Shown here piece by piece: positions 14,126 through 30,070 of a DNA stretch of 64,000 bases (position 1 is its first letter; each line of letters begins with the position of its first letter). The stretch lies in contig JAJFUB010000013.1 of the NCBI GenBank assembly GCA_021372615.1, forward strand, positions 62,001 to 126,000, written 5' to 3'. The DNA is from a bacterium (GTDB lineage: Bacteria > Armatimonadota > Zipacnadia > Zipacnadales > UBA11051). The notes beneath the pieces are model-generated. The model saw only the letters and a program-made list of their open reading frames with translations, had not been told where the DNA came from and made no database searches. The translations under genes were made by a program, and so were the position numbers.

Positions 14126-15277
14126 CTACCCGTTCCCCCCCTCCGTCGCCTCCCCCCCGTTCGGCGCGCTCGAGTCAATCGAGTCCATCAGTGAGTGCAG
14201 GAGCAGGTCCTGACTGGCTCCGAACTGCAGTAGGCTCATCTCCACGGTCGCCGCGGTAATAGCCGGCGGACCCTCCTCCCTGGCGCGCACGCCGGCCATC
14301 GCCAGGCCCCGACGGCACGCCAGCCGGAGCACCGTTACCAGCGCCCCGGGCGCTACCTGATACACCGTCGGGCTGGGCCTTTCCGTCCGCACCCCCGTGG
14401 CGTGGTCGAAGATGTAGTCGACGGTCGCCTCGGGAATGGTCACACCCAACTCGACCTCCAGCGCCTCGGCCGCCTGCGCGAGCATGGCGTACACCTGGTG
14501 TGGCGATAGCTCTGGCAGGACGATGTGCACAACGTCGCTGACCGTGGCCAGCAGGGCTGCCTCCATGGGCGTGGTGCAGAAGGCCACGCCGCGTAGGCCC
14601 GCCGGCAGGACACGCGCCAACTCCTGGACATGCCCGCGCGGGATCACCGGCACATGGCCACTGCACGTGAGGTCCTGCACGACTTGCGCCAGGCGTTCCT
14701 CGGTCCCCAGGGCACCGCTCTGTGTCTGCGAAGCGCTCAGTTTCAGCCAGTCGAGTTCCATGACCCGCCCGTGGCGCAGCTCCGGCAACACCGTCTCCCC
14801 CGCCAGCATCCGGCGAGCCAACTCGATCGCGACCGCGTGGCAGCCCGTACCGGGGAAGCCCTGGACGGCGACCAGGTGGTCCGCCGCCACGGCATCCGCC
14901 AGAGCTTGCACGACTTCCTCTCGCTCCACACAGGGCGTCGTAGGGAAGCAGGCGACGTGCAGGCCCCAGTCGCGGCAACAGCGCGCTGCGCCCGGACGGA
15001 TGCCCTTCAGCCGGGGCGGGGGTGCCGTCATGTCTGGCCCACCCAGCGCCAACACGCTCTCGACGAGGGCCTCGTCGGGAGTGGCGTAGTGGCCGATGGC
15101 TTTGCCGAGCAGATCGAGGGAGACGACATCCTCACCCTCGCGCGCAATGTCGAAGCCCCGGTGGTGTATGTCCCGGCAGGGCACACCGCGCAAGCGCAGT
15201 CGCGCGGACTCCTCGTCCATCTCAACCGAGACGCTGCCCATGGCGTCGAGCCACTCGATGTTGTGTGCGTTGAACAT
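14126..15277 (-). CDS. Clp-like AAA+ domain protein lacking the Walker lysine (pseudo-ATPase?)
   Basis: 383 residues. Residues 130-330 follow the layout of the first AAA+ module of ClpA/ClpB. A P-loop-like stretch GFPGTGCHAVAIELARRML (140-158) has Cys146 where Lys should be. LGTEERLAQVVQDL matches the Clp block around GEFEERL, but the following strand (GHVPVIPRG) has no DE Walker B. HIVLPELSPHQVYAMLAQ and LEVELGVTIPEATVDYIFDH match the Clp small-domain region. It probably cannot hydrolyse ATP and may be a structural or adaptor partner. GTG and two ATG starts lie close together; I took the ATG placed nine bases behind GGAG. Last gene of the operon, 50 bases behind the second PafA-like gene. 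Confidence 0.6.
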   Translation of the reverse strand: MFNAHNIEWLDAMGSVSVEMDEESARLRLRGVPCRDIHHRGFDIAREGEDVVSLDLLGKAIGHYATPDEALVESVLALGGPDMTAPPPRLKGIRPGAARCCRDWGLHVACFPTTPCVEREEVVQALADAVAADHLVAVQGFPGTGCHAVAIELARRMLAGETVLPELRHGRVMELDWLKLSASQTQSGALGTEERLAQVVQDLTCSGHVPVIPRGHVQELARVLPAGLRGVAFCTTPMEAALLATVSDVVHIVLPELSPHQVYAMLAQAAEALEVELGVTIPEATVDYIFDHATGVRTERPSPTVYQVAPGALVTVLRLACRRGLAMAGVRAREEGPPAITAATVEMSLLQFGASQDLLLHSLMDSIDSSAPNGGEATEGGNG

Positions 15278-15327
15278 GTCACCCATCTCCACATGCTGCC
15301 GAGCCTGCGCTCACCCCCGCCCTTCGG

Positions 15328-16956
15328 CTACGTGGGCTCCCGCTCGGTCAGCACCTGCTCAGCCGACACGCCGACCAGGTCGGCATAGCGCTGCATGAGC
15401 AGCCAGTCATCGCGTGTGACGGTGTCATTGAGCACGTTGCCCAGGTGGTGCATGTGTATCAACTGGCCCTCGTCGGTGCGGAGCTTGATGCCGATGCGGT
15501 CGAAGCCGGCGAAGCAGGGGGCCAGCCGGCCGGCGCTGCGCTCGGAGATCGCCGCATAGGCTTCCATGAGGCGCTGCCGCTTGGCCGAGCGAGTGGGCGG
15601 CACGTAGCTCGGGTCGGCGGTGTCTCCGAAGGGAGCGCGCTGCCAGGCGGCCACATGCGGGTACGCCTCCATCAGGCGCTCGTACAGGCCGTCGGCCATC
15701 GCGAAGTCGTGGTACAGCAGGTTCAGCCCGAACATCTCCCGCTGCAGTTCCATGGCCTCGGTCACGAAGGGCAGACGGGCGGCATCGCCGTCCGAGGTTG
15801 GCGCCGCGCTGGCGGTCTGCGCCACCGTGGACGGCTCGTAGCCATGCTCCTGGCACACCGGGCGGAAGACGAACTCGTGCTTGATGACAGCGTCCAGGCC
15901 CAGCAGCGGGCCGGACACTTCCCCGGGATAGCGCTCCAGCGCGCCGCGCAAGGCCGTCAGCTGCTCCAGGGCCCAGGCGACCCATGCCACCTGTGTCTTC
16001 TCCCCCTCTGTCAGTAGCCGGTCGTACAGCGCCAGTCGCAGGTCTAGCAAGTCCAGGTGCGTCCACTCCCTGCCGCCGATAGCCACGGGCTGGTGAATGG
16101 TCTCGCCGAAGCGCTGGCTGAGGGCCAGGCGAATGGTGAACCACGGATCGGGTGGCGCGATCTCCAGGCCGCGCTCCTTGAGGAGCCGCAGCACCTCGGC
16201 CGTGTGGTGGCAGCCCAAGTGGGCGTCCATGGCCACCGTGGCCGCCGACAGGGCCCGCTGGTAGGCCGACCGTGCCCATCCCGCCTCATAGTGGGTGTAG
16301 TGCAGCGTTTCGATCTCCTTCACCTCAAAGGCCGGTACCTCGCGTCCCGGCTGCAGGAGGCCCTTGAAGGAGATGCAGTCATTGCTGATATCGGTGACGA
16401 TGGCGCGGCTGCGGACCTCCCACTCCGGGCCGAAGTGCACACCGATGCCGCCCCAGACCTGGCAGGTGCCCAGGAAGTACAGCATCACCTGGCGCACGTC
16501 GTCGCGACGCAGGGCGGTGCGCAAGCCCGGCAGGCTCGGATCGTTGAGGCTGACATTCAGGTGCGAGCCGGCGAAGGTCAGGCGGCGGCGTCCGCCGCGC
16601 ACATAGCCGCAGGCCCCCAGCTTGATGCGCTCGCCCAGGCGCTCGCGGAGGATGCGCCGGTTCTGGTCCTGCGCGGCGGCTAGCTGGAAGGGGGAACCGC
16701 ACTCGGGGGTCTGCGTCTCCAGCAGGTCGCTCTCGCGGGACACGTCGTAGTAGAAGGCGCCCCCGCCACGCAACATGCAGTAACGCGGGAAGCGCCAACG
16801 GATCTCGTCGGTGGGCATGGTGTCGGTGTGGGGCATGGCACAGCGGCGAATGATCTCCGCGCGCTGTTCGGCGAGCAGGTGGCTGTTGCCACCGGTCGTG
16901 AGGTAGTGCTCGCAGTCATTGCCCATGGCCACTCGCGCCAGCGTCTCGGTGCTCAT
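15328..16956 (-). CDS. PafA/Dop-like protein 2 (Pup ligase/depupylase fold)
   Basis: 542 residues, close to the 450-500 of Pup ligase PafA and depupylase Dop, which share the glutamine-synthetase-like ligase fold. The N-terminal strand MGNDCEHYLTTGGNSH (11-26) aligns with the metal-binding G-x-E-x-E-x-G of PafA/Dop, with Asp14 for the first Glu. GGAFYYDVSRESDLLETQTPEC (from residue 65) matches the block around the catalytic Asp (here Asp71) and the TPEC. A region with FAGSHLNVSLND fits the later N/H block. ATG overlaps the stop of its paralogue (ATGA) and is preceded by GGGAG. Whether it ligates, cleaves or is regulatory cannot be decided; the altered first metal ligand could mean a changed activity. 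Confidence 0.65.
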   Translation of the reverse strand: MSTETLARVAMGNDCEHYLTTGGNSHLLAEQRAEIIRRCAMPHTDTMPTDEIRWRFPRYCMLRGGGAFYYDVSRESDLLETQTPECGSPFQLAAAQDQNRRILRERLGERIKLGACGYVRGGRRRLTFAGSHLNVSLNDPSLPGLRTALRRDDVRQVMLYFLGTCQVWGGIGVHFGPEWEVRSRAIVTDISNDCISFKGLLQPGREVPAFEVKEIETLHYTHYEAGWARSAYQRALSAATVAMDAHLGCHHTAEVLRLLKERGLEIAPPDPWFTIRLALSQRFGETIHQPVAIGGREWTHLDLLDLRLALYDRLLTEGEKTQVAWVAWALEQLTALRGALERYPGEVSGPLLGLDAVIKHEFVFRPVCQEHGYEPSTVAQTASAAPTSDGDAARLPFVTEAMELQREMFGLNLLYHDFAMADGLYERLMEAYPHVAAWQRAPFGDTADPSYVPPTRSAKRQRLMEAYAAISERSAGRLAPCFAGFDRIGIKLRTDEGQLIHMHHLGNVLNDTVTRDDWLLMQRYADLVGVSAEQVLTEREPT

Positions 16957-18596
16957 GACAGGCTCCCTTCTTCATACGGTCCCATCAGCATGGGGTACAT
17001 GCCGTGCCCGGCGCCGCCCCCGGACGGGCTGGACGGTGCCGGCGCTGACACCACCTTGCCCCCGCTGCGGACGTGGTGCTGCGTCCGGTAGCGGTGGGTG
17101 TAGCTCAACTCGGTGCGGTAGGGGGCGGCCGGGCCGTCGAGGATCTCGTCCAGGCTCAGCCCCTCCAGGCCCCCGATCCGCGCTAGTGAGCAATCCTCAG
17201 GCGTCGGCAGCGACAGGCGGGCGCTGCGACGCGGCAGGTTCAGACCATCCCAGTCGCACATCTGCAGCCGCTCGCCCTCAGTGATGCAGCGCTGAGCAAT
17301 ATGGCCCCGCAGGTACGCCCGAGTGACCGTCGGCGGCGTGGTGAACGCCTCGGCGAGCTGGAGGGGCGCGAACGGCGGGGCGTGTCCCAGGACGCGGGCG
17401 ATGTGCTGACCCTCCGGCTCAAAGAGCGCCGGCTCGATCTGGTGCCACAGCACGTCCAGCTCGCGGGCGGTGCGGTTGTCGGCGGCCTCGAACGTCATCC
17501 TCTTCGCAGCCCACTCGACGCCGCTGGCGAAGAGGTCGCGGCGCCGCAGCGCGTCTATGACCTGCCGGAGCCAGCGGTCGTAGCGCCGCCAATGCGGCAG
17601 AGCCTCCGCCGCGTGTTCATCGTCCTCCAGGACCGCCGCGATGGTCGCCAGCCCCTGCTCGGCGAGGTCCAGCGCGTTGGCGGAACGGCCGTCGTTGAGT
17701 GGCACGGGCAGCCACGGATCGCGGTTCATCACGGCTGCCGCCAGCAGCGGCTGGCGCAGCGACAGATCCGGATACGGCCGCACGGGAGCGGGGCGCAGCA
17801 GGGCGTAGGTGGCGGCCTGCACCAGCGCGATGCGCAGTTCCTGCGTTGGGCTGACAGTCGTGTCGTGCGGGCCGATGCAGTGGTTGCGTGTGCGGCTGGC
17901 GTCGTCGTTCAGTGTTTCGCGGTTGCCGCGCAGGTTCAGGCTGATCGTGCGCTGGAAGGTCGTCTCGTGCGACGGGAAGAGCGTCTCCATGCTCTCCAGC
18001 CGCTGTCCGCACAGGAAGGCGGTCTCGTCGTAGTCGTCCCCCACCGCTCCGCTGCCCAGCAGTACTGCCGCCGCGGTCACGAACGGCACATAGGCGCGGA
18101 GGACCGTGGAGAAGCACTCGCCCACAAGCAGCCGCCAGTCGTCGCGCCCCACCTGCACATTGATATGTCCGGCTCGGTAGACATAGCCCGTGCCGCGTGA
18201 CTTGCGCGAACGGTTCATGAGCCAGACCAGGGCCTCCTGGGGACATTCGGCGGCGGCCTGGGCCAGCATGTACTCGGTGGCGCACAGATGCAGATAGGCC
18301 TCGTGCGGGTCCAGCGTCTCGCACGAGGTGACCTCGGGCTGGTCCAGGTCAATGTAGACGGCGCCGCCGTCGGGCAGGGGCAGCAGGTCAGCCGACGCTC
18401 CCCAGTAGCCCCCCGGCGTGCTCAGCCCGTAGCTGGTCCGTACCGGCTCATCACCGAATACACGCTCGTTGAGGGCCTGTAGTACGTGACGCGCCCCCTG
18501 GGCCTGCGGGTCTGGCCAGCGCTGTGTCGTCTTGGTGACAGCCAGATGCTCCCATTCGTTGCCGAGGATCGGCAGGACACAGGTCTCGTTGCTCAT
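16953..18596 (-). CDS. PafA/Dop-like protein 1 (Pup ligase/depupylase fold)
   Basis: 547 residues. The first strand LPILGNEWEHLAV (8-20) keeps the E-x-E metal pair (Glu14, Glu16) of PafA/Dop. GGAVYIDLDQPEVTSCET (78-95) matches the segment with the catalytic Asp (Asp83). RGTGYVYRAGHINVQV (135-150) fits the SYG-x-HENY block. VPFVTAAAVLLGSGAVGDDY (170-189) matches the PFLVTRQ..TGSGRVG block, and SRTRNHCIGPHDTTVSPTQE resembles the late R-x-H-x-x-x-x-D region. In known systems these enzymes join, or remove, the C-terminal Glu of Pup to lysines. The paralogue downstream shares the G-N-x-x-E-H start. I chose the ATG behind GGGGAG, not the GTG three codons earlier. Starts 18 bases after the AAA ATPase gene. 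Confidence 0.7.
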   Translation of the reverse strand: MSNETCVLPILGNEWEHLAVTKTTQRWPDPQAQGARHVLQALNERVFGDEPVRTSYGLSTPGGYWGASADLLPLPDGGAVYIDLDQPEVTSCETLDPHEAYLHLCATEYMLAQAAAECPQEALVWLMNRSRKSRGTGYVYRAGHINVQVGRDDWRLLVGECFSTVLRAYVPFVTAAAVLLGSGAVGDDYDETAFLCGQRLESMETLFPSHETTFQRTISLNLRGNRETLNDDASRTRNHCIGPHDTTVSPTQELRIALVQAATYALLRPAPVRPYPDLSLRQPLLAAAVMNRDPWLPVPLNDGRSANALDLAEQGLATIAAVLEDDEHAAEALPHWRRYDRWLRQVIDALRRRDLFASGVEWAAKRMTFEAADNRTARELDVLWHQIEPALFEPEGQHIARVLGHAPPFAPLQLAEAFTTPPTVTRAYLRGHIAQRCITEGERLQMCDWDGLNLPRRSARLSLPTPEDCSLARIGGLEGLSLDEILDGPAAPYRTELSYTHRYRTQHHVRSGGKVVSAPAPSSPSGGGAGHGMYPMLMGPYEEGSLS

Positions 18597-18614
18597 GTTG
18601 CACACTCCCCGGGT

Positions 18615-20318
18615 CTAGCTCGCATTACGGAAGCGCATCCGGACCTCGCGGGCAGAGGTCGTGTCCAGCAGTGCCTCGCGGTCCACGTGCAGACCGGTCA
18701 CGCGCTGGGCTTCCTCGCCCGACAGCCCCAGCGCCACGACCAGGTCCTCGGGTGCCAGGAACGCCACATTCGCGTAGAGCTGGCGCTTCAGTTCGCCGGC
18801 GAGGCTGAAGGCGCTCAGGCAGGTGTCGTCGTAGTACGCAGCCCGTGCCGCTGCCTGTACGCTCTGTTCCAGCGTGCGTCCGCTGACCGCCTCGGAGGCC
18901 TGGTAGACCCGCCCATGGTCGCTGCTATCGAACACCAGGCGGATGAGCGGGAAGTCCAGGCCGCACAAGGCCATCTGAGCCGTCGTCTCCGGCTCGTCGT
19001 CAAGCTGCACCCGCGACAGGTACGCAGTCAGGATGCGCACGGCCGTCTCGCGCTCCGGCAACCCCACCGCCACCGTCTCGGAGATGCGGCTCAGCAATGC
19101 GGCATCCAGCCGCGACTGGTAGTTGCTGGTGAAGGCCAGGATGCGGATCGGCTCGCCGGGCTCGCGCGGACGGCCCAGCATGTCGGCGATCACCGCGAAA
19201 ATGCGCGAGGTGACATCGGCGCTGGTGGAGTCCATGTGGGCCCCGCGCTTGCGCATGATCGCGTCCACCTCGTTCATCACGATCAGCGTGTTCTGGTCGC
19301 CGCCGGCGGCCAGCGCCTCGCGCATCAGCTTCTCACTGCGGCCGAACCACTCAGAGGTGATGTTGGACGTGTCTATGCGGATGGTCTGGTAACCCAGGGC
19401 CGCCACCTCACGCGCCAGATGGCGTTCCGCGATGGTCGTCTTGCCCGTGCCGCTCGGGCCGGCGAACAGGATGGTCTGCGGCAGGCCTATCCCGTAGCTG
19501 GCGGCTCGCTCGGGGTCGCGCATCACCTTGATGATCTGGCCGATGCGCTGCAGCACTGAGGGCGAGTAGATGAAGTTGTCCTCCTCCGCCGGGAGCGGCG
19601 TGAACACGTTGTAGAGCGGGTTGCGCCGCGTCTCGGCAGCCTCGTCGGCCTGGGGCGCAGGATACGCGATGCGGATCTTGCCGTCCGTCACGCGCACCCG
19701 GTCCCCGGGCGTCAGCTCCGCCAGGTGCGGCTCCAACTCCGCCGAGGCGATGGCCACCACGCTGTCTTCGGCCAGCACGCCGTCGCGCAGCTCCAACTCG
19801 ACATGGATCCGCCCCTCGCCCGCAGGCTGGACGGCCTTCAGTCGCGCTGAGACCAGCCCCACATGGTCGTAGCCGTACGAGCCGAAGTAGGCGGCATCGC
19901 CCTCAGCGCCCAGTGCGAACTGCACGGTCTCGCCCAACGACGGCGCGCGGGCATCCTGCGGCAGGATGATGAAGTCGGCATCGTCAATCCAGATGGCCAC
20001 CAGCGGCTCGCCGTGGATGATCTCCTGCATGATCCGGGTGACGCGCCCGATACGGCGGGCCGACGAGGCCTTCACACGATCGAGTTGCTCGCGCACGGCC
20101 TCGTACTCAGCTCGGGCGTCGGCTACCTGTTGGGTGTAGCTGTCAAAGGCCTCGCAGATGCGGTCTACCGCGTCTGGCGGGACTTCGGCCGCCAGCAGCG
20201 AGCCCCGGAGATGGTCGCCAATGCCCACCGGGTCCAGGGGGAAATCCCGCTGCGAGGCCGCCGCCAGGTGCTGGTTGATGATGCTGGCGATATCGGCTAT
20301 GAGGGTCCGTCGTGTCAT
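18615..20318 (-). CDS. Proteasomal-type (Mpa/ARC-like) AAA ATPase
   Basis: 567 residues laid out as in Mpa/ARC: an N-terminal helical region with coiled-coil-like segment about 60-87, a beta-rich double OB-like region about 105-220, one AAA module 275-425 and a helical end. Walker A is GPSGTGKT (287-294), Walker B LIVMNEVD (345-352) with Asn349 replacing the usual Asp, and sensor-1 region FTSNYQSRLDAALLSR. In Mpa this ring unfolds pupylated proteins into the 20S proteasome. Here the C-terminus (MRFRNAS) lacks the GQYL-like docking tail, and no prcA/prcB lies in the window. ATG overlaps the RING stop (ATGA). It may unfold or extract tagged proteins without a 20S core. Confidence 0.85.
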   Translation of the reverse strand: MTRRTLIADIASIINQHLAAASQRDFPLDPVGIGDHLRGSLLAAEVPPDAVDRICEAFDSYTQQVADARAEYEAVREQLDRVKASSARRIGRVTRIMQEIIHGEPLVAIWIDDADFIILPQDARAPSLGETVQFALGAEGDAAYFGSYGYDHVGLVSARLKAVQPAGEGRIHVELELRDGVLAEDSVVAIASAELEPHLAELTPGDRVRVTDGKIRIAYPAPQADEAAETRRNPLYNVFTPLPAEEDNFIYSPSVLQRIGQIIKVMRDPERAASYGIGLPQTILFAGPSGTGKTTIAERHLAREVAALGYQTIRIDTSNITSEWFGRSEKLMREALAAGGDQNTLIVMNEVDAIMRKRGAHMDSTSADVTSRIFAVIADMLGRPREPGEPIRILAFTSNYQSRLDAALLSRISETVAVGLPERETAVRILTAYLSRVQLDDEPETTAQMALCGLDFPLIRLVFDSSDHGRVYQASEAVSGRTLEQSVQAAARAAYYDDTCLSAFSLAGELKRQLYANVAFLAPEDLVVALGLSGEEAQRVTGLHVDREALLDTTSAREVRMRFRNAS

Positions 20319-20881
20319 GATTCGCTCCACCCTTCTTGCCCCTTGAGCATGAAGCTCTCGCGTTGCCGGTCGGTGCGGCAGATGGCGCAGGAGCAGACAG
20401 GACATGCGGTCGGCTCCTCACCTTGCAGACATTGCGGATGGAAGGCCCAGGAGCAGGCCGGGCAGTAGACCACCTCGTCACCGGCGTGCAGTGGTTGCCC
20501 GTCGTCCATACAGGCCGCGCACAGCACGGGCCCGCTCGCGACGTCGTCCGGCGCCCAGAGCGGCTCAGTCCGCTCGGGGTCGAGGAAGTCCTGGGTCACG
20601 TAGCGCCAGACCTGCGCGCCACACTCGATCGTGTCGCCGTTGACGACGCGGCAAGTGCCCGCCAGCAGGGGCAGACCGCGCACACGTGCGAGGCCCGGTG
20701 GGGTTAGCAGTACATGGCCCCCGTCGTGCCCCACCAGCACCGGGACATCCACCGACTCGCCTGGCTGCAGGCGCCGGAGCAATCCGGCCGGCTCGTCGCC
20801 ACTTAGCACGACCGCGGCGTGGCAGGGCAGGCCGATGGACTCGACGGCCTCGTTGTCCTCCAGGCGCATCAACCGAGGCAT
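20315..20881 (-). CDS. Prokaryotic RING-type zinc finger protein (candidate E3)
   Basis: 188 residues. The C-terminal part has eight zinc ligands in C4HC3 order: C121-x2-C124, C140-PA-C143, H148, C151, C160-PV-C163 (VYCPACSWAFHPQC at 138-151), the cross-brace layout of RING/PHD-like fingers and of the Prok-RING families described next to bacterial E1/E2 genes. Two more Cys follow at 165 and 168. Residues 1-110 are beta-rich (LAGTCRVVNGDTIECGAQVW resembles an FHA-like sandwich edge) and may bind substrate. Overlaps the JAB gene by 13 bases and the AAA gene by 4. Probable E3-like bridge between E2 and target; this role is inferred from context. Confidence 0.8.
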   Translation of the reverse strand: MPRLMRLEDNEAVESIGLPCHAAVVLSGDEPAGLLRRLQPGESVDVPVLVGHDGGHVLLTPPGLARVRGLPLLAGTCRVVNGDTIECGAQVWRYVTQDFLDPERTEPLWAPDDVASGPVLCAACMDDGQPLHAGDEVVYCPACSWAFHPQCLQGEEPTACPVCSCAICRTDRQRESFMLKGQEGWSES

Positions 20882-21819
20882 GATTCGACCTCCTGGTCGT
20901 CTGTGACGGGCTCTGTCTCCGGGCCGGCCTCGATGTGTAGGTTCACCTGCTGCAGGGAGCCATTGATCCAGCGGAAGCCGGCAGCCGTCGGCTGTTGGCC
21001 GACACTGGCGGCGATGATGAACAGGCCCTCGGCGCCCGCCGACCACAGACACAGGTCCCAGTCCATCGGGGAGGGGGCGATCAGGCCGTAGGGGTGTGTG
21101 TGGCAGGGCCCCAGGATACGGAAGGGCGGGCCCATGGCCGCCACGCTGTCTTGGGCATAGGCCCAGTCCTCGGGGCTGAACTGGACGGTCGCGGCCCCGG
21201 CGCCCTCAGCCGCGCCAGGCGGAACGATGACATCGGTCACGACCGGCACGCCGCCCGGCCCCAGGACCCCGACCGAGAACGCGCGCTGCTCGGCCTCGTC
21301 GGTCATCGCCACCAGTTGGCTGATGACCGCGCCGGCCTGCGCCGTGAGCATGGCCTCCCTGGCCTTGACCGAGTAGTCGCAGTCCGGCAGCACGTAGTCG
21401 AACACCGGCACCTCGGGCACGGCCTGCTGGTCCACATACAGGGCAGCGGTGGCACGGTCGCCGGGCAAGAAGATGTTGTGATGGCTGGAGAGAGCCTCGA
21501 CCAGGGCCTTGGTCTCCATCAGCAGAACGGCCGACATGGGGAGGTCGCGTGCGGTCGCCACGGTGCCATCGCTCGCTCGCACCTCGATCCGGCAGGTGAC
21601 GAGACGGAGGCGCCCTGACGCCGTAGTCTGTCCCTGGCAGGCGACGCGCAGTTGCAGGGGTGTGCCACCGGCGAGGCTGCTGCCCAGTTCCTCGAGGGCC
21701 ACCCCCTGCGCGGCCAGCTCCAGGCGTCGCCACAGGACCTCCGGCGCCATCAGGAAGGTCGTGGCGACATCGGGATTCGTCTGGTTGTGGATCGTCACAT
21801 GAAGGCCGTTGCCTGCCAT
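20869..21819 (-). CDS. JAB/MPN (JAMM) metallopeptidase, deubiquitinase-like
   Basis: 316 residues. Residues about 150-290 form a JAB domain with a complete zinc motif: CHTHPYGLIAPSPMDWD gives His240, His242, Ser250 and Asp253 (H-x-H-P-x6-S-x2-D), with Glu177 as likely catalytic Glu. In related systems such enzymes trim Ubl precursors or remove Ubl from targets. The N-terminal 140 residues are a separate beta-rich domain that I do not recognise. GAGGAG lies ahead of the ATG; 68 bases separate it from the Ubl gene. All catalytic residues appear intact, so an active peptidase is expected. Confidence 0.88.
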   Translation of the reverse strand: MAGNGLHVTIHNQTNPDVATTFLMAPEVLWRRLELAAQGVALEELGSSLAGGTPLQLRVACQGQTTASGRLRLVTCRIEVRASDGTVATARDLPMSAVLLMETKALVEALSSHHNIFLPGDRATAALYVDQQAVPEVPVFDYVLPDCDYSVKAREAMLTAQAGAVISQLVAMTDEAEQRAFSVGVLGPGGVPVVTDVIVPPGAAEGAGAATVQFSPEDWAYAQDSVAAMGPPFRILGPCHTHPYGLIAPSPMDWDLCLWSAGAEGLFIIAASVGQQPTAAGFRWINGSLQQVNLHIEAGPETEPVTDDQEVESCLG

Positions 21820-21887: not shown

Positions 21888-22160
21888 CTACGCGGCGGTC
21901 AGGCGCGGGATCACCGTGACCTGACCGGCGGTCAGCAGGTCGCGCACGCGCTCATCCTGCAGGCTCTCGCTCGGGCGCAGGAGCTCGCCCGACTCGGCCC
22001 GCAACTGGTAGTCCAGGGGCATATTGCGCTGACTGCGCGACGGCAGTTGCAGCCGCCACACCGCCTCCGCCGCGACATCGGCGATGGTCGCGGCCGCACC
22101 CAGCTCTACGCTGGCTCGGCGTTGACCCGTCAGGTCTCGGCACTCAACCGTGTTGCTCAC
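21888..22160 (-). CDS. Ubiquitin-like (YukD-type beta-grasp) protein
   Basis: 90 residues with a beta-grasp pattern: strand VECRDLTGQRRASVEL, helix ATIADVAAEAVWRLQL, then LDYQLRAESGELLRPSESLQ and a last strand TVIPRL. The YQL...G..L....SL order is that of YukD/ubiquitin-like proteins. The C-terminus is PRLTAA: there is no diglycine, and no long tail for the JAB enzyme to remove. GTG start behind AAGGAGG; its first codons overlap the end of the 202-residue protein gene. Likely the protein activated by the E1 of this operon, but the C-terminal Ala makes the chemistry uncertain. Confidence 0.65.
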   Translation of the reverse strand: MSNTVECRDLTGQRRASVELGAAATIADVAAEAVWRLQLPSRSQRNMPLDYQLRAESGELLRPSESLQDERVRDLLTAGQVTVIPRLTAA

Positions 22161-22752
22161 GATGGTTCCCTCCTTCCTGTTGCTGAGGTGCTCGCCACCA
22201 GCGACCCCAGTTGGCAGCCAGCCCGGGGTGGTTGCGCAGCACCTCGAGAATGGGGCGCAGTTCCACCGCGATGTACCGCAGAGCTGCGTCCACCAGCTCC
22301 ACGTCCTCGTCGGTGGGCTGCAACAGCGGAATGAAGATGCTCGCCTTGGTGCAGGCCTGATTGACGGCGATAAGGTGTGTCTGCGTGTTGGCGGCCGTGA
22401 CCCAGAGATGCCGCACCGTGCCTCCTATCTCGGGCGGGGTCAGCGGGATCCAGCACTCCAGACAGTCCTCGTGCACAATGACCTGGGCCTTCACGCTGCC
22501 GCCGCACAGCCGCCGCAGCGGTTCGGCCAGCCTGTCGCGCCACGCCGCGCCGATGGCCTCGCGCTCCACGGCGCTGAGTTCCGGCCCCTTCCCGCCGGCG
22601 AGCCACCGCGCCGCGCACTTGTCCTCGCGCCAGCTGAGCGGGCCATCCACCGCGTGTCCCGTGTGCGTACGCTTGGACCACCGGCGCTCTTGGGGCAGCG
22701 TGTGCCGTGTGAACTCACCTCGGGTTGTGGCTTGTGCCTGAAGCTGCGACAT
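22144..22752 (-). CDS. Unknown protein encoded between E2-like and Ubl genes
   Basis: 202 residues, no family recognised. Start behind AAGGAG, 16 bases after the E2-like gene; its end overlaps the Ubl start, so it is translated as part of the set. The N-terminal 40 residues are basic and polar. From 60 on it alternates helices (LSAVEREAIGAAWRDRLAEP) with strands (AQVIVHEDCLECWIPLTPPE, VRHLWVTAANTQTHLIAVNQ) and ends in a Gln/His-rich tail. Three Cys occur in the middle. No membrane segment. The fixed place between E2 and Ubl suggests a conjugation cofactor or substrate adaptor; this is inference only. Confidence 0.6.
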   Translation of the reverse strand: MSQLQAQATTRGEFTRHTLPQERRWSKRTHTGHAVDGPLSWREDKCAARWLAGGKGPELSAVEREAIGAAWRDRLAEPLRRLCGGSVKAQVIVHEDCLECWIPLTPPEIGGTVRHLWVTAANTQTHLIAVNQACTKASIFIPLLQPTDEDVELVDAALRYIAVELRPILEVLRNHPGLAANWGRWWRAPQQQEGGNHREQHG

Positions 22753-22768: not shown

Positions 22769-23245
22769 TCACCGCAGGGCGTGCGCATCGAAGGGCAACT
22801 CGCCCCGGGCCTGGGCCGCCGTGTACCAGCGGGCGGCGTGGGCGTTGTAGATCCCCTCGGACATGGCCCACGACGCCCCGGCGATAATATCGAACACCAG
22901 GGAGACCACGGACCACAGCGGGATGACCGGCCCGCGCTCAAGCTGTTGCTCGAGGTTCGCGCAGATGATGCGCGGCGGGTCGGGTCGGATGTTGGGGTGG
23001 AAGGGCCGCTCACCGTCCTGCGGCTCATAGACGGCCATGAGACCATGCAGCTTCTCGGCCCCCACGAACCGGACGACATGGCGGGGCACGATCTCAATGC
23101 TGCCTTCGGGCCGTTCCACCGCGCCCAGGCAGTCGAAGGCAACCAGCAGGTGCATCGGCCCTCGCTCGATGATCTCGGCGCGCGTGCGCGGATCGTTGAT
23201 GAAGTCCACCGTCTCGGCTATCTCGCGTTCGGTGCGGTCAGTCAT
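22769..23245 (-). CDS. E2-like (UBC-fold) conjugating protein
   Basis: 158 residues, the size of a minimal E2. FHPNIRPDPPRIICANLEQ (82-100) reproduces the E2 core: HPNI at 83-86 and a Cys ten residues after the Asn (Cys95), the place of the catalytic Cys in HPN-x-x-x-G-x-x-C-L. PLWSVVSLVFDIIAG (109-123) matches the W-P..-i..vl..i..ll helix behind the active site. The preceding sheet (EIVPRHVVRFVGAEKLHGLM) fits the UBC meander. It would carry the Ubl as a thioester on Cys95. The ATG overlaps the E1 gene by 8 bases; an earlier in-frame start would overlap more and lacks family support. Confidence 0.75.
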   Translation of the reverse strand: MTDRTEREIAETVDFINDPRTRAEIIERGPMHLLVAFDCLGAVERPEGSIEIVPRHVVRFVGAEKLHGLMAVYEPQDGERPFHPNIRPDPPRIICANLEQQLERGPVIPLWSVVSLVFDIIAGASWAMSEGIYNAHAARWYTAAQARGELPFDAHALR

Positions 23246-24326
23246 CCTGCACCAGCCCCTCGACTGCAATGGTCACGGCTGTCTGTGGTTGACTGGGTGT
23301 ACGCCCCCGGCCGCGCAGCAGCAGCAGATCGCGCGCGGGTAGTCCTAGTGAGGCAGCGCTGGCGTCTGGCCGTAGCTGGTCCAGGGCCAACTCGCTCGTC
23401 CAGCCTTCCAGGGCCACCACGGGTGACTGGCAGTGCGGGCACGGGTTGCGGAAGACGCGCGGATTGGGGCGCCTGCCGCAGGCGCACTCGCTGCCCAGCG
23501 CCAGGGGTCTGAGGAACTCCAGGCGGGCCGTACCCTCGGTGATCCCCACGTCCCGCGCCACGGCCGACAGCACGGGCAGGATCGGCTCGGCCGCACCCAA
23601 CGTCACCGTCGCCTCGGGCCAGGGGGTCACCCGGGCGCAGTCGAGGAGACAGTGCGGGTCGCGGGTGAGGCGGCTGGCAAAGGCCTCACAGGCCGGGCCG
23701 AGGGCCAGGGTCGTGTCCACGCCCGCCGGGGCCCCGATGGCGCTGAGCGTCAGGGCCGCCGCGGCTTGGCCCTCGGCCGCCCCGTAGGGCATCGTGAAGG
23801 CGTCGCCGCCCTCGGCCACGGCCTGCTCGCAGGAAAAGCCGTCTTCGTTGAGGATGGATGAGATGAAAGCCTCCCCGCTGCCGCACAGAGGACAGGGCCC
23901 AGCGGCCAGGGGGAAGAGGAAGGAGCGCACTTGGGCGGCCCCCTCGCTGACATGACAGGTGAGGAGAGGCAGGGGGTGGTTCGGTGTGGCCAGACGCAGG
24001 CAGATCCCGGTCACGCGGCGCGTGGTCGCGGGGCGGTCCGTGGCGAGCACGATCAGCTCCGCTTCGCGCCACTCCTGTCCGCCGACGACGTCCTCGATCC
24101 GGCCGCAGCGCGCCGACAACTGATCTGGGCGACCGAGGGCCGCGGCCTGCTGCTGCAGCGCCAGCACCTTTGGCTTGCCCACATCGGCCGGGCCGTAGAC
24201 CCGCTCCGTGGTGCGTGCCGTGACAGGCTTGGGGTCGGCGGCGATCAGCTTCCACCCCTGGCGCAAAAGGGCCAGCACGATGGTCGTGCCTGGTAGTCCG
24301 AGGCCGGCGCTGATCGCCTTGTGCAT
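23238..24326 (-). CDS. E1/ThiF-like Ubl-activating enzyme
   Basis: 362 residues. The N-terminal Rossmann fold has G-L-G-L-P-G (8-13), Asp31 in LIAADPKPV, the ATP-contacting Arg42 in ARTTERVYG and Lys53 in DVGKPKV, then VLATDRPATTRR: the ordered signature of MoeB/ThiF/E1 enzymes. GPCPLCGSG may hold the thioester Cys or a zinc ligand. Residues near 300 carry C-A-C ... C-P-H-C, a zinc-ribbon-like element, followed by a small C-terminal domain that could present E2, like a UFD. It would adenylate a Ubl C-terminus with ATP. GGAGGAG precedes the ATG, 53 bases behind the Pup-like gene. Family secure, pairing with the local Ubl inferred. Confidence 0.85.
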   Translation of the reverse strand: MHKAISAGLGLPGTTIVLALLRQGWKLIAADPKPVTARTTERVYGPADVGKPKVLALQQQAAALGRPDQLSARCGRIEDVVGGQEWREAELIVLATDRPATTRRVTGICLRLATPNHPLPLLTCHVSEGAAQVRSFLFPLAAGPCPLCGSGEAFISSILNEDGFSCEQAVAEGGDAFTMPYGAAEGQAAAALTLSAIGAPAGVDTTLALGPACEAFASRLTRDPHCLLDCARVTPWPEATVTLGAAEPILPVLSAVARDVGITEGTARLEFLRPLALGSECACGRRPNPRVFRNPCPHCQSPVVALEGWTSELALDQLRPDASAASLGLPARDLLLLRGRGRTPSQPQTAVTIAVEGLVQDD

Positions 24327-24379: not shown

Positions 24380-24550
24380 CTACTCGCCTTCGTGGTTGGA
24401 TTGGGCCAGATCGTGGCGCTCGTGGGCCGTGTTGCGGAACTGGTCTACGATCGCCAACGGCTGGAGCCGGGGCATGGATACGAAGCGTTGCTCCCGGTTG
24501 TCGCCGTCGTCCCCCCTAGAGGGGCCTTCGTGTTCGCGGAAACGCTCCAT
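24380..24550 (-). CDS. Small Pup/UBact-like protein ending in Gly-Glu
   Basis: 56 residues, first gene of the operon. Strongly charged and probably disordered N-terminal half (MERFREHEGPSRGDDGDNRE), then a possible amphipathic helix (PLAIVDQFRNTAHERHDLAQ) and the C-terminus NHEGE. Size, polarity, helix position and the terminal Gly-Glu are those of Pup (GGE/GGQ end) and of the Gram-negative UBact proteins, the substrates of PafA-type ligases. Two PafA/Dop-like proteins are encoded downstream in the same operon. AAGGAGG sits at ideal distance from the ATG; an in-frame start 11 codons earlier has no such site. No diagnostic catalytic motif exists for this family, so the call rests on these features plus context. 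Confidence 0.55.
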   Translation of the reverse strand: MERFREHEGPSRGDDGDNREQRFVSMPRLQPLAIVDQFRNTAHERHDLAQSNHEGE

Positions 24551-27048: not shown

Positions 27049-28317
27049 TCAGCAGCCTTGCAGCGGGCACAGCGGGTCAGGGCCGGCGAAGTCCCCCCTG
27101 GCCAGATAGGCATGCACGGGACATGACCCAAAGCAGCCGTAGCCGTACCGCGTGCATCGGGTGCAGGCCGGGTTCTTGCTCAAGCGTAGGTCCCGGAACA
27201 CGCGCCAGACCTCCGCCTGCAGCCATAGGCCATGGATCTGGCAGGCCGACATGTGTCGGACATTGCCCGCGGCGAACGGGGCGCGCGCCGCCGGGTCAGG
27301 CGACCCGCCCGGCGAGCAGCCACACGCGTGCATCCAGCCGGCCGGGGAGATGAACGCCGCCTCGCGGCCCGCCGGGCACCAGCGCACCTTGTGGATTACG
27401 GGATCGCTGGCCTGCCCGGCCACGGCTCCGACGTCCGCGCCATACTGGAATTCGACCTGCAGGTCGGCCTGTCCTTGCCGCTGGCCCAGCAGATGCGACA
27501 CGGCGGCCATTTCGGTCGCGCCGGGGCGGTCCGCGGCGAACTGCCCGGAAGCGCCGCGCCCTGTCGGGCGGGGAGCGATCAGCGACAGATGCCGCACACC
27601 GCGAGCCTCCAGCCAGCGCATGAAGTCAGACAGGACCGGTAGCAGGGACCGCGTGATGACGGTGTTCACGCGCAGGCTGCGTCCGGAGGCCAGCAGCCAG
27701 TCCACCGTCGCCATCGTCCGTGCGAACGCCCCGGGCCCACGCAGAGCGTCATTGATGTCCTCGGGCCCATCCAGCGACACGAGGTACCGCCCGATCGAGC
27801 GGGCGAGCAATTCCTCGGCGAGCCCCTCGCGCCATACGCCGTTCGTGCCCAGAGACACGTACAGGCGGCACGCGAGGGCCTCGTCAATGAGTTCGGGCAG
27901 ATCCGGCCGCGCGGTCGGCTCCCCGCCGGTGAAGCGGATCTCGCGGACACCGATGGCCGCCAGACGGTGGATCAGGGCGCGCAGCTCACCGGTCCCGAGT
28001 TCCGGCTCCGGCGCAATCGTGTCGCGATAGCACATCACACATGACAGATTGCAGCGCCCTGTCACTTCCAGATAGATGCGGTTGGGGCTGCTCAGGCAGC
28101 CCTCAGGCAACTCCTCGGCCCACGAGCGCGTGGCGAAGTAGAGCAACGTGTCATCGTTCGCGGCGGCACGTCGCAGGGACTGGAGTTCCTCCTCGCCCAA
28201 CTCCGTGACGACGCCGGTGTGCGGATCGAGGGCCTGTCCGCCGACGCGCTCCTCGCGAATGCGTCGCGCGATGGGGACCGCAGGTAGACCCTCCTCGGGA
28301 ATGGTATGGAGGATCAT
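27049..28317 (-). CDS. Radical SAM protein with C-terminal Cys-rich (SPASM-like) region
   Basis: 422 residues. YLEVTGRCNLSCVMCYR carries the C-x3-C-x2-C cluster site for the 4Fe-4S/SAM unit; EIRFTGGEPTARPD is the GGE motif. The C-terminal part holds many Cys (HACGCSPGG, ACTRCTRYGYGCFGSCPVH, CPLQGC), as in SPASM/twitch domains that bind extra clusters. Such enzymes often modify peptides or proteins. ATG overlaps the previous gene stop (ATGA) and follows GGAGG. Substrate unknown; no precursor peptide is seen nearby. Confidence 0.88.
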   Translation of the reverse strand: MILHTIPEEGLPAVPIARRIREERVGGQALDPHTGVVTELGEEELQSLRRAAANDDTLLYFATRSWAEELPEGCLSSPNRIYLEVTGRCNLSCVMCYRDTIAPEPELGTGELRALIHRLAAIGVREIRFTGGEPTARPDLPELIDEALACRLYVSLGTNGVWREGLAEELLARSIGRYLVSLDGPEDINDALRGPGAFARTMATVDWLLASGRSLRVNTVITRSLLPVLSDFMRWLEARGVRHLSLIAPRPTGRGASGQFAADRPGATEMAAVSHLLGQRQGQADLQVEFQYGADVGAVAGQASDPVIHKVRWCPAGREAAFISPAGWMHACGCSPGGSPDPAARAPFAAGNVRHMSACQIHGLWLQAEVWRVFRDLRLSKNPACTRCTRYGYGCFGSCPVHAYLARGDFAGPDPLCPLQGC

Positions 28318-29513
28318 GGCCGTGCCTCCGCCAGCAGGTCCACGAAGCAGTACGGATCGCCCGCGTCCATCGCTCCGTTCACGACCAGCGCCGACACGGC
28401 GCACCCGCCGAAGCACGGCGAGCCATACAGATAGGCGCAGCGACGGCACTTGTCCGCGAGCCGTGCATTGACCAACGGACAGGCATCACGCGACCGCCGC
28501 CAGATGGTCAGCAGGTCGTCCTCGCGGACATTGCCGACGCGGGACTCCGGACGGCCGGATAGCTGCCCGCAGGTGAAGCAGTCCCCGCCAACAGTGACCG
28601 AGATGCCGCCTTGGCCGCAGCCCAGACGCTTGTGGGCGCCCTGGACAGGAGGCCCGGGCGGCGCGGCCAGGTAGTCCCAGGGCGTGTCGAGGCGCATCTG
28701 CGGGTACTGCCGGCGCAGGGCGACGACCCGCTCCACGAGGGCACGGTGCTCCTGCGCGTCAAGCATATCGCCAGGCGCGGCTCCGCCGACCGGTCGCAGG
28801 GGACTGAAGGCCGCGGCAGCACCCATCTGGGCCGCCAGCGCTACGACGTGATCCACGCAGTGCTGGTTGCGGCGGTGGAAGGTCATCGAGAGGCGCACGC
28901 GCTGCCCGGCGGCACACAGTGTGCGTGCGCTGTGGACACACTGGTCATAGCTGCCCGCGCCGCGGATGGCATCGTGGGTCTCGCGGTCGCCCTGCAGCGA
29001 GAGATAGACGGCCGATATGGGGGCATGTGCCAGCTCCCCCCGCAACGCCCCGGCGATCATCCCGTTGCTGACCAGGACGGTGGTCATCCCCAGCCCGGCG
29101 CTGGTCGCGATGAAGCGCAGCAGGTCAGGATGCAGCGTGGGCTCGCCCCCGGACAGTCGCACCTCCACCCCGCCGTGCTCGGCGTGGGCGCGAATGAGAC
29201 CCTCGATCTCCCATGTCGTCAGCTCGTTCTCCAGGGCCCGACCGGACCGGTTGTAGCAATACCAGCACGAGCACTGACACGCGGCTGTGAGGTCCAGGAA
29301 GAGCGACAGCGGCGCCCCCCAGTGACGGCTGCCGGGCGCGTAGACGGTACGGTAGTCAATGGGCTGCACATCGTCGCGGTTGGCCCAGGTGAGCAGGTCG
29401 TCGCTCGGCAGGTACTCCCAGCGCCCGGACACGCGGTCGTGGTGGATCAGGCACGTGCTCTCAGCACGAACCAGGTGGGGCTTCACCTGGGGGGCAAGCT
29501 GTGGCGTCGCCAT
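28314..29513 (-). CDS. Radical SAM protein with SPASM-like C-terminus
   Basis: 399 residues. LDLTAACQCSCWYCYNRSGR has the C-x3-C-x2-C site, VEVRLSGGEPTLHPDLLRF the GGE motif. The C-terminus has CGQ...FTCGQLSG and KCRRCAYLYGSPCFGGC, an auxiliary cluster region. Architecture matches PqqE/anaerobic sulfatase-maturase-like enzymes. GGAGG sits eight bases before the ATG chosen; a GTG four codons earlier lacks spacing. The gene overlaps the MazG-like gene by 31 bases and the next radical SAM gene by 4. Function unknown. Confidence 0.88.
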   Translation of the reverse strand: MATPQLAPQVKPHLVRAESTCLIHHDRVSGRWEYLPSDDLLTWANRDDVQPIDYRTVYAPGSRHWGAPLSLFLDLTAACQCSCWYCYNRSGRALENELTTWEIEGLIRAHAEHGGVEVRLSGGEPTLHPDLLRFIATSAGLGMTTVLVSNGMIAGALRGELAHAPISAVYLSLQGDRETHDAIRGAGSYDQCVHSARTLCAAGQRVRLSMTFHRRNQHCVDHVVALAAQMGAAAAFSPLRPVGGAAPGDMLDAQEHRALVERVVALRRQYPQMRLDTPWDYLAAPPGPPVQGAHKRLGCGQGGISVTVGGDCFTCGQLSGRPESRVGNVREDDLLTIWRRSRDACPLVNARLADKCRRCAYLYGSPCFGGCAVSALVVNGAMDAGDPYCFVDLLAEARP

Positions 29514-30070
29514 AGCAGCCTCCACAGACGCAGCGTTGCCAGGGGCCGGCGCATGGGCTGGGGGTGGGGCCAGTCATCGCCGCAGGCGGCGAAGAAGCCG
29601 GCGGCGATGGCCATCTCGTGCTCGTAGGCGGTCGCGAAATCCGCGCCCGCGCTCGTGGCCACTGCAGCCGCACCGCCAATGATGCCAATGAGGTGTTCCT
29701 TCGCGCCCGGGGACTCGCTCAGGGCTGCCAGGTCGCGACACATGCTCAGGATGACCGCAGAGGGGCGGTCGGGACGTACGTCGGGGATCGCGATGCGCTC
29801 GGGCAGAGCCACACCATCATCGCGGGCCAGACGGATGGCGATGAAGGCGACATCACAGCACTCGTCGGCCAGCTTGGCGGGCAGAGCTTCACCGCGCCGG
29901 AAGCCTTCGAGTCTCTGCGCGATGTGCCCTAACGACCCCAGTTCCCCCAGCAACTCCAGCAGCACGGCCTGCCGATCCCACGCCCTCGGTTCGACCCGCG
30001 CGAAGCCGTCGAAGACGGGCAGGGACAGCTCGGTCAGATGCCGCATGTCCAACTCGGCCATGGTTGTCAT
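29483..30070 (-). CDS. MazG-like all-alpha NTP pyrophosphohydrolase-type protein
   Basis: 195 residues, all helical. LLELLGELGSLGHIAQRLEG and KLADECCDVAFIAIRLARDDG follow the E-x-x-E ... E-x-x-D metal-binding pattern of MazG/dUTPase-2 nucleotide pyrophosphohydrolases. Such enzymes clean nucleotide pools or hydrolyse nucleotide-activated intermediates. A GalT/HIT-like nucleotidyltransferase is encoded next to it, so a nucleotide-sugar or nucleotide step in the pathway is possible. The C-terminus is basic. Metal ligands were judged by eye, so activity is uncertain. Confidence 0.65.
   Translation of the reverse strand: MTTMAELDMRHLTELSLPVFDGFARVEPRAWDRQAVLLELLGELGSLGHIAQRLEGFRRGEALPAKLADECCDVAFIAIRLARDDGVALPERIAIPDVRPDRPSAVILSMCRDLAALSESPGAKEHLIGIIGGAAAVATSAGADFATAYEHEMAIAAGFFAACGDDWPHPQPMRRPLATLRLWRLLWRRHSLPPR

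Follow-up and report, generated by a model that had tools for sequence, protein, structure and literature searches.

The analysed stretch of DNA (64,000 nucleotides, henceforth the window) contains an operon that joins genes of ubiquitin-like conjugation to genes of the Pup-ligase family, and this composite operon is the larger and more surprising result of the analysis, the RING finger encoded within it being less rare than assumed. The genes run on the reverse strand from position 24326 down to 14126 in the order E1-E2-X-Ubl-JAB-RING-AAA-PafA-PafA2, followed by a last gene, and they overlap by a few bases. Among 291 genomes of the phylum Armatimonadota, the window genome (G000) included, such composite loci (a ubiquitin-like set together with Pup-ligase-family genes) were found six times, in six genomes. 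Pupylation is regarded as an invention separate from, and convergent with, ubiquitin-like conjugation. In our reading, the operon is a cassette for two tags; its RING protein would recruit the charged E2 (E2~Ubl), and the tags may be linked. The Pup-ligase-family genes had been missed by an earlier, sequence-only reading of this DNA.

The RING gene (20315..20881, reverse strand) starts with ATG and encodes a protein of 188 aa, in which a degenerate FHA-like part precedes a C4HC3 finger (residues 121-163; 20393..20521, reverse strand). All eight ligands named in the sequence-only reading (C121, C124, C140, C143, H148, C151, C160 and C163) are present at the positions given there, in C4HC3 order and with the spacing C-x2-C-x15-C-x2-C-x4-H-x2-C-x8-C-x2-C. 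This ligand set is not due to chance: a search of all six frames of the 64 kb window finds the pattern a single time, shuffling the protein 300000 times produced it once, and residue-shuffled ORFs contain it 0.0 times per window. C4HC3 is given as the ligand arrangement of prokaryotic RINGs in a section of a review (PMC11354881). The claimed coupling to JAB and AAA genes holds as well, since the JAB stop overlaps the ATG of the RING gene, whose own stop shares the tetranucleotide ATGA with the start of the AAA gene. GC content at third codon positions (0.82) is like that of the remaining operon genes.

The window finger misses every Pfam cutoff; its scores are 18.3 bits for PHD, 16.4 for Prok-RING_1 (PF14446, gathering cutoff 29.1 bits) and 15.1 for zf-RING_2. 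Proteins at the equivalent operon position in relatives reach the Prok-RING_1 cutoff in the loci L059 (31.7) and L092 (29.1) and remain below it in L057 (24.5) and L058 (13.0). The window finger is thus predicted to be a diverged relative of Prok-RING_1, with which it shares the C4HC3 finger and the order of ligands, and a copy of which, in L062, neighbours E2 and JAB genes. It differs from this family in its score below the cutoff, in the fusion to a degenerate FHA domain, and in the absence of Trp after the sixth ligand, where it has Leu152; of 19 loci inspected for generic finger matches, 18 contain the pattern (one does not), and all 18 have this Trp. The ligands themselves vary among relatives. 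Residue 124 (the second ligand) is Asp in both orthologues (CPVD and CPAD), with the other seven ligands kept; CxxD recurs in L086 (one of the 18 loci with a pattern match among the 19 examined) and as CPYD in L062, whose finger passes the Prok-RING_1 cutoff. In L057 and L058 the Cys after the His is absent and another Cys is found further along, so that the sixth ligand is shifted.

A search of the PDB with a six-sequence profile reported the RING proteins EL5 (9.2e-7), RNF4 (5e-6) and RNF24 (2.7e-4) ahead of PHD and C1 domains. The AlphaFold model of the FHA-RING protein, built from three sequences, has a mean pLDDT of 57, with averages of 75-82 for the blocks that hold the finger. The best six Foldseek matches of this model are RING E3s (E from 0.017 to 0.33, none reaching 0.001), as are the first 18 VIA matches (best Z 5.2). 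Altogether, these searches, with their modest scores, favour a cross-brace RING fold without proving it. A rubredoxin or zinc-ribbon fold, named in the sequence-only reading as the result to be checked against, was rejected: rubredoxin appears only at E 0.51 in the PDB profile search, and none is among the 50 VIA matches listed, an absence that counts as weak evidence. It is plausible that the window protein is RING E3-like, and it may have E3 activity. An alternative, which we consider rather unlikely, is that the protein has no E3 role: its finger would be PHD-like or serve as a scaffold for binding the AAA ring, JAB or Ubl, and the E2 would transfer Ubl directly. In Pfam, the window protein scores highest with PHD, the sixth ligand lacks the following Trp, and PHD and C1 domains come next after RINGs in the PDB search. 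However, RING E3s are at the top by both sequence profile and fold, and the gene always lies beside the E2-like gene or its place. With moderate confidence, we favour a protein that combines a degenerate FHA domain with a diverged finger of the Prok-RING type and would serve a bacterial ubiquitin-like cascade as its E3-like adaptor.

The N-terminal part (residues 1-118; 20528..20881, reverse strand) is predicted, with low confidence in the AlphaFold model, to form beta strands, and its profile comparisons point to a degenerate domain of FHA origin. When six N-terminal sequences (without L059) were compared with a profile of FHA domains (one from L062, eight from the window genome), 44 columns of the second half matched at 86% (E 4.9e-6), versus 0.1-0.3% for five unrelated operon profiles and 0.1-0.7% for seven reversed controls. 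The same six-sequence profile matched the single sequence of L059 at 29.1%; the latter alone matched the FHA profile at 95.7%, and its Pfam FHA score (20.7) equals the cutoff. The suggestion of an FHA-like N-terminus is thus upheld as far as relationship is concerned, but the likeness covers only the C-terminal half of this part, and the window protein has no Pfam match to FHA (PF00498). The motifs by which FHA domains read phosphothreonine are GR, SxxH and NG. None of them was found in the window protein by eye against FHA domains, nor were phosphothreonine-reading residues found in this way in L059, which appears degenerate despite its Pfam FHA match. The further proposal that the FHA part selects phosphorylated targets was dropped, because the reading motifs are absent and the likeness is confined to the C-terminal half. 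A cluster of five FHA-domain matches (L126-L130, G000:C13:128624-134004) lies on the same contig as the cassette, 2.6-8 kb past the end of the window.

The ubiquitin-like half of the operon begins with an E1-like protein of the ThiF family (362 aa; 23238..24326, reverse strand; Pfam ThiF 28.7 bits, cutoff 28.1). The adjacent gene (22769..23245, reverse strand) encodes a putative E2-like protein of 158 aa with a predicted UBC fold and without a Pfam match, which bears out the earlier assumption of a local E2. The HPN motif and the following Cys are present in 5 of 5 aligned copies, and the model (pLDDT 62) comprises a helix, four strands and three helices. Each of the 50 Foldseek matches listed for it is an E2 or an E2 fusion, with a best E of 1.5e-3, and VIA reported a best Z of 8.0; the best value of the sequence profile against the PDB was only 0.2. 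Protein X (202 aa; 22144..22752, reverse strand), a conserved part located between E2 and Ubl, has no over-cutoff Pfam match; the equivalent place is occupied in L009, L010, L057, L058 and L092, i.e. in every composite locus. The JAB-like metallopeptidase (20869..21819, reverse strand; Prok-JAB 15.3 bits, cutoff 25) was assigned by alignment and carries the motif HTHP...SPMD, with HTQP in place of HTHP in L010; its relative in L057 scores over the JAB cutoff. Several of the single-gene assignments lie below Pfam cutoffs, and the case for the operon therefore rests on synteny and on better-scoring relatives.

The putative Ubl is a YukD-like protein of 90 aa (21888..22160, reverse strand; Pfam YukD 23.2 bits, cutoff 27). 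Its C-terminus, PRLTAA, is identical in L010, while the homologs end with PRLTAARSGT (L009), PTVEAGRGSRG (L057), PTVDAGRGAGG (L058) and PDIEAG (L092); tails with or without a short extension past AA/AG would fit trimming by JAB. No lysine occurs among the 269 residues of the Ubls of the window, L009 and L010; there are two in the Ubl of L057 and three in that of L058. The chance of a lysine-free window Ubl at the local rate is 0.07, so we take the absence as suggestive. Lysine makes up 1.08% of the operon proteins versus 2.85% in other genes, a scarcity that is not operon-specific, two neighbouring radical-SAM genes being equally poor. These form a radical-SAM/SPASM pair upstream of the cassette (27049-28449 and 28314-29525, reverse strand).

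BLAST searches found the RING protein in 5 of the 291 genomes, including that of the window and two with clear orthologues. The orthologue contigs share the gene order of the window: L009 spans E2 to the second ligase and starts inside E2, so that E1 is off the contig, and L010 spans E1 to a cut PafA. Profile searches extended the count to 28 genomes and later, with the six-sequence profile, to 62 (E<=0.01). The claim that such proteins are rare in bacteria was therefore overstated, since Prok-RING is a known bacterial family that is common in Armatimonadota. Seven of the 62 genomes matched much of the N-terminal part together with the finger, and nearly all others the finger alone (generic Prok-RING). 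Reading those seven genomes revealed three more composite loci, L057, L058 and L092 (which starts inside the RING gene), and in addition L059, with FHA-RING, E1, X, Ubl, JAB and an E2 placed by order only. The RING gene accompanies E1, E2, Ubl and JAB in 7 of the 7 loci read (window, L009, L010, L057, L058, L059 and L092), counting the off-contig E1 of L009 and the E2 of L059 assigned by order. The composite cassette was not found in L011, L012, L060, L061, L063 and L064 upon inspection by BLAST, a genome-wide scan with the window Ubl returned only L015 and L016, i.e. the contigs of L009 and L010, a viral scan returned none, and no plasmid was found with RING or JAB.

The product of the AAA gene (18615..20318, reverse strand; Pfam AAA 70.8, cutoff 21.2) is, by alignment, a predicted relative of the proteasomal ATPase (ARC/Mpa)-like proteins of L057 and L092, the only ones in which the proteasomal-ATPase OB domain is over the cutoff (37.2 and 33.2, respectively). 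It is followed by a PafA-like protein of the Pup-ligase family (16953..18605, reverse strand; Pfam Pup_ligase 104.9 bits, cutoff 25), whose Tyr84, Asp86 and Glu91 are invariant across seven family members, and by a second, very divergent Pup-ligase-like protein (15328..16956, reverse strand; 14.7 bits, below the cutoff), which has a relative in L009. The last gene of the run (14126..15292, reverse strand), with a weak bpMoxR match (E 0.23), is possibly of AAA type and of uncertain membership. The family is more evident in L057 and L092 (306.2 and 299.9 bits for the first member, 265.8 and 255.8 for the second). Between the two ligase-family genes lies a small protein (62-65 aa) that ends with QQSGE in L057, RGGQ in L058 and DGGQ in L092. 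That of L058 aligns to Pfam Pup almost end to end (15.1 bits, cutoff 27), while those of L057 and L092 have no Pfam match; with no over-cutoff match to Pfam Pup, they are predicted to be Pup-like from position, size and C-terminus. With the predicted Pup-like protein and a Dop-like gene, the Pup side is complete in L057, L058 and L092.

No Pup is recognizable in the window by profile. Upstream of E1, a 56-aa ORF that ends with NHEGE (24380..24550, reverse strand) is a positional candidate for a Pup-like protein; it is lysine-free, with a good ribosome-binding site and GC3 of 0.82. Its homology to Pup-like proteins is not supported: three Pup-like/UBact profiles did not pick it among their best 8 of 1144 ORF segments, and a high profile score that it obtained is a self-match, because the ORF itself is in the alignment. 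A tree of 16 sequences places the ligases and the Dop-like proteins of L057, L058 and L092 in supported clades of their own, separate from the canonical sequences of G044 and G046; in the latter two genomes, an ARC-ligase-UBact-ligase locus contains an over-cutoff PF00227 match. The window pair is on long branches and its placement is unsafe. It is possible, although we doubt it, that the window enzymes act on something other than Pup, e.g. a small metabolite or the Ubl tail, which would make the operon a ubiquitin-like system with repurposed ligases. The long branches of both ligases, the lack of a Pup match in the window, and a genome without a clear 20S core agree with such repurposing, but the invariant Tyr84, Asp86 and Glu91 and the presence of a small ORF with a C-terminal Glu argue against it.

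Nine genomes were searched for 20S subunits (PF00227); over-cutoff matches number at least two each in G044, G046, G045 and G052 and one each in G000, G255, G257, G246 and G214. The window genome, which is 96.7% complete, has no clear 20S core: its only over-cutoff match is HslV, encoded beside HslU, and was rejected as a proteasome subunit, and another match scores 20.8 bits, below the cutoff. The window cassette therefore probably does not feed a 20S proteasome; draft genomes and the one below-cutoff match leave doubt.

Genes of the Pup-ligase family occur in 188 of the 291 genomes, and within the window's own taxonomic order only in G000, G255, G257 and G269. It could be argued that the ubiquitin-like and Pup-ligase halves are two independent systems that merely lie next to each other, as the stretch of L059 that was read carries the ubiquitin-like half but neither AAA nor Pup genes, and its genome, G246, has no listed Pup_ligase match. 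We regard this as improbable, given that Ubl-JAB-(RING)-AAA-PafA are kept together in six genomes, that the window genes overlap by a few bases, and that canonical ligases and Dop-like proteins fall outside the groups formed by those of L057, L058 and L092. In the two-tag cassette that we prefer, E1 would activate the YukD-like Ubl and hand it to E2, the RING finger would dock the charged E2, the FHA-derived half would position a substrate or another cassette member, and JAB would trim or remove the Ubl. The additional presence of an AAA ATPase and of Pup-ligase-family enzymes in the operon makes it probable that a second tag is written and read alongside. We speculate, tentatively, that both tags may be placed on the same targets, picked by the RING-FHA protein: E1-E2-RING would add Ubl and the PafA-type ligase a Pup-like peptide, JAB and Dop-type enzymes would erase them, and one proteasomal-type ATPase would read the outcome.

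Parts of this arrangement resemble known systems. The Caldiarchaeum subterraneum operon likewise encodes a Ub-like protein, E1, E2 and a small RING, with JAMM-type processing of the modifier, but its RING is reported to be of the RING-H2 type and is without an FHA part, and Pup-ligase genes are not mentioned in the portion of the source considered here (PMC5654768). Bacterial operons with E1, E2-like, JAB and Ub-like genes together, as in the window, are also on record; the relevant section of PMC1779556 places their YukD genes with ESAT-6 export and does not mention a Pup ligase. Pup/UBact-proteasome loci, as outlined in part of PMC2588565 and represented here by the canonical L131-L133, share with L057, L058 and L092 the ARC-type ATPase, two Pup-ligase-family genes and a small Glu/Gln-ended modifier, whereas the composite loci add E1, E2, RING, Ubl and JAB, and no 20S gene was seen in the parts of these loci that were read. 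As for the E1-E2 systems of CBASS, the L057 E1 matches PADLOC E1-E2 models (best 41.8 bits), while the window E1, E2, JAB and RING have no PADLOC match and the AAA protein has only AAA-type ones. We found no description of a combined ubiquitin-like and Pup operon in the open literature by title and the beginning of the abstract; the 2011 Mol Biosyst work on prokaryotic RING fingers may already show such neighbourhoods.

A conserved cassette with both tags would show that bacteria combined ubiquitin-like conjugation with pupylation. It would also offer a small non-eukaryotic system for studying RING-adaptor function and a test of whether both tags can be read by one ATPase. The lysine-free Ubls of the window, L009 and L010, if they hold up, would speak against lysine-linked chains of that Ubl and against the Ubl as a Pup acceptor in the window lineage, which makes the wiring of the two tags testable.

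Three further loci deserve mention. The FHA-RING protein of L059 (L059:5290-9595) reaches both Pfam cutoffs, and the locus possibly resembles an ancestral state of the ubiquitin-like half. Besides the composite cassette, G255 has a separate cluster (L062:4894-9797) that comprises two JAB genes, an E2 (UQ_con 42.8 bits), the CPYD-bearing Prok-RING_1 protein and a protein that carries an FHA domain at its C-terminus. Finally, the window's own genome encodes two more Prok-RING-like fingers (L060, G000:C171:21389-22110).
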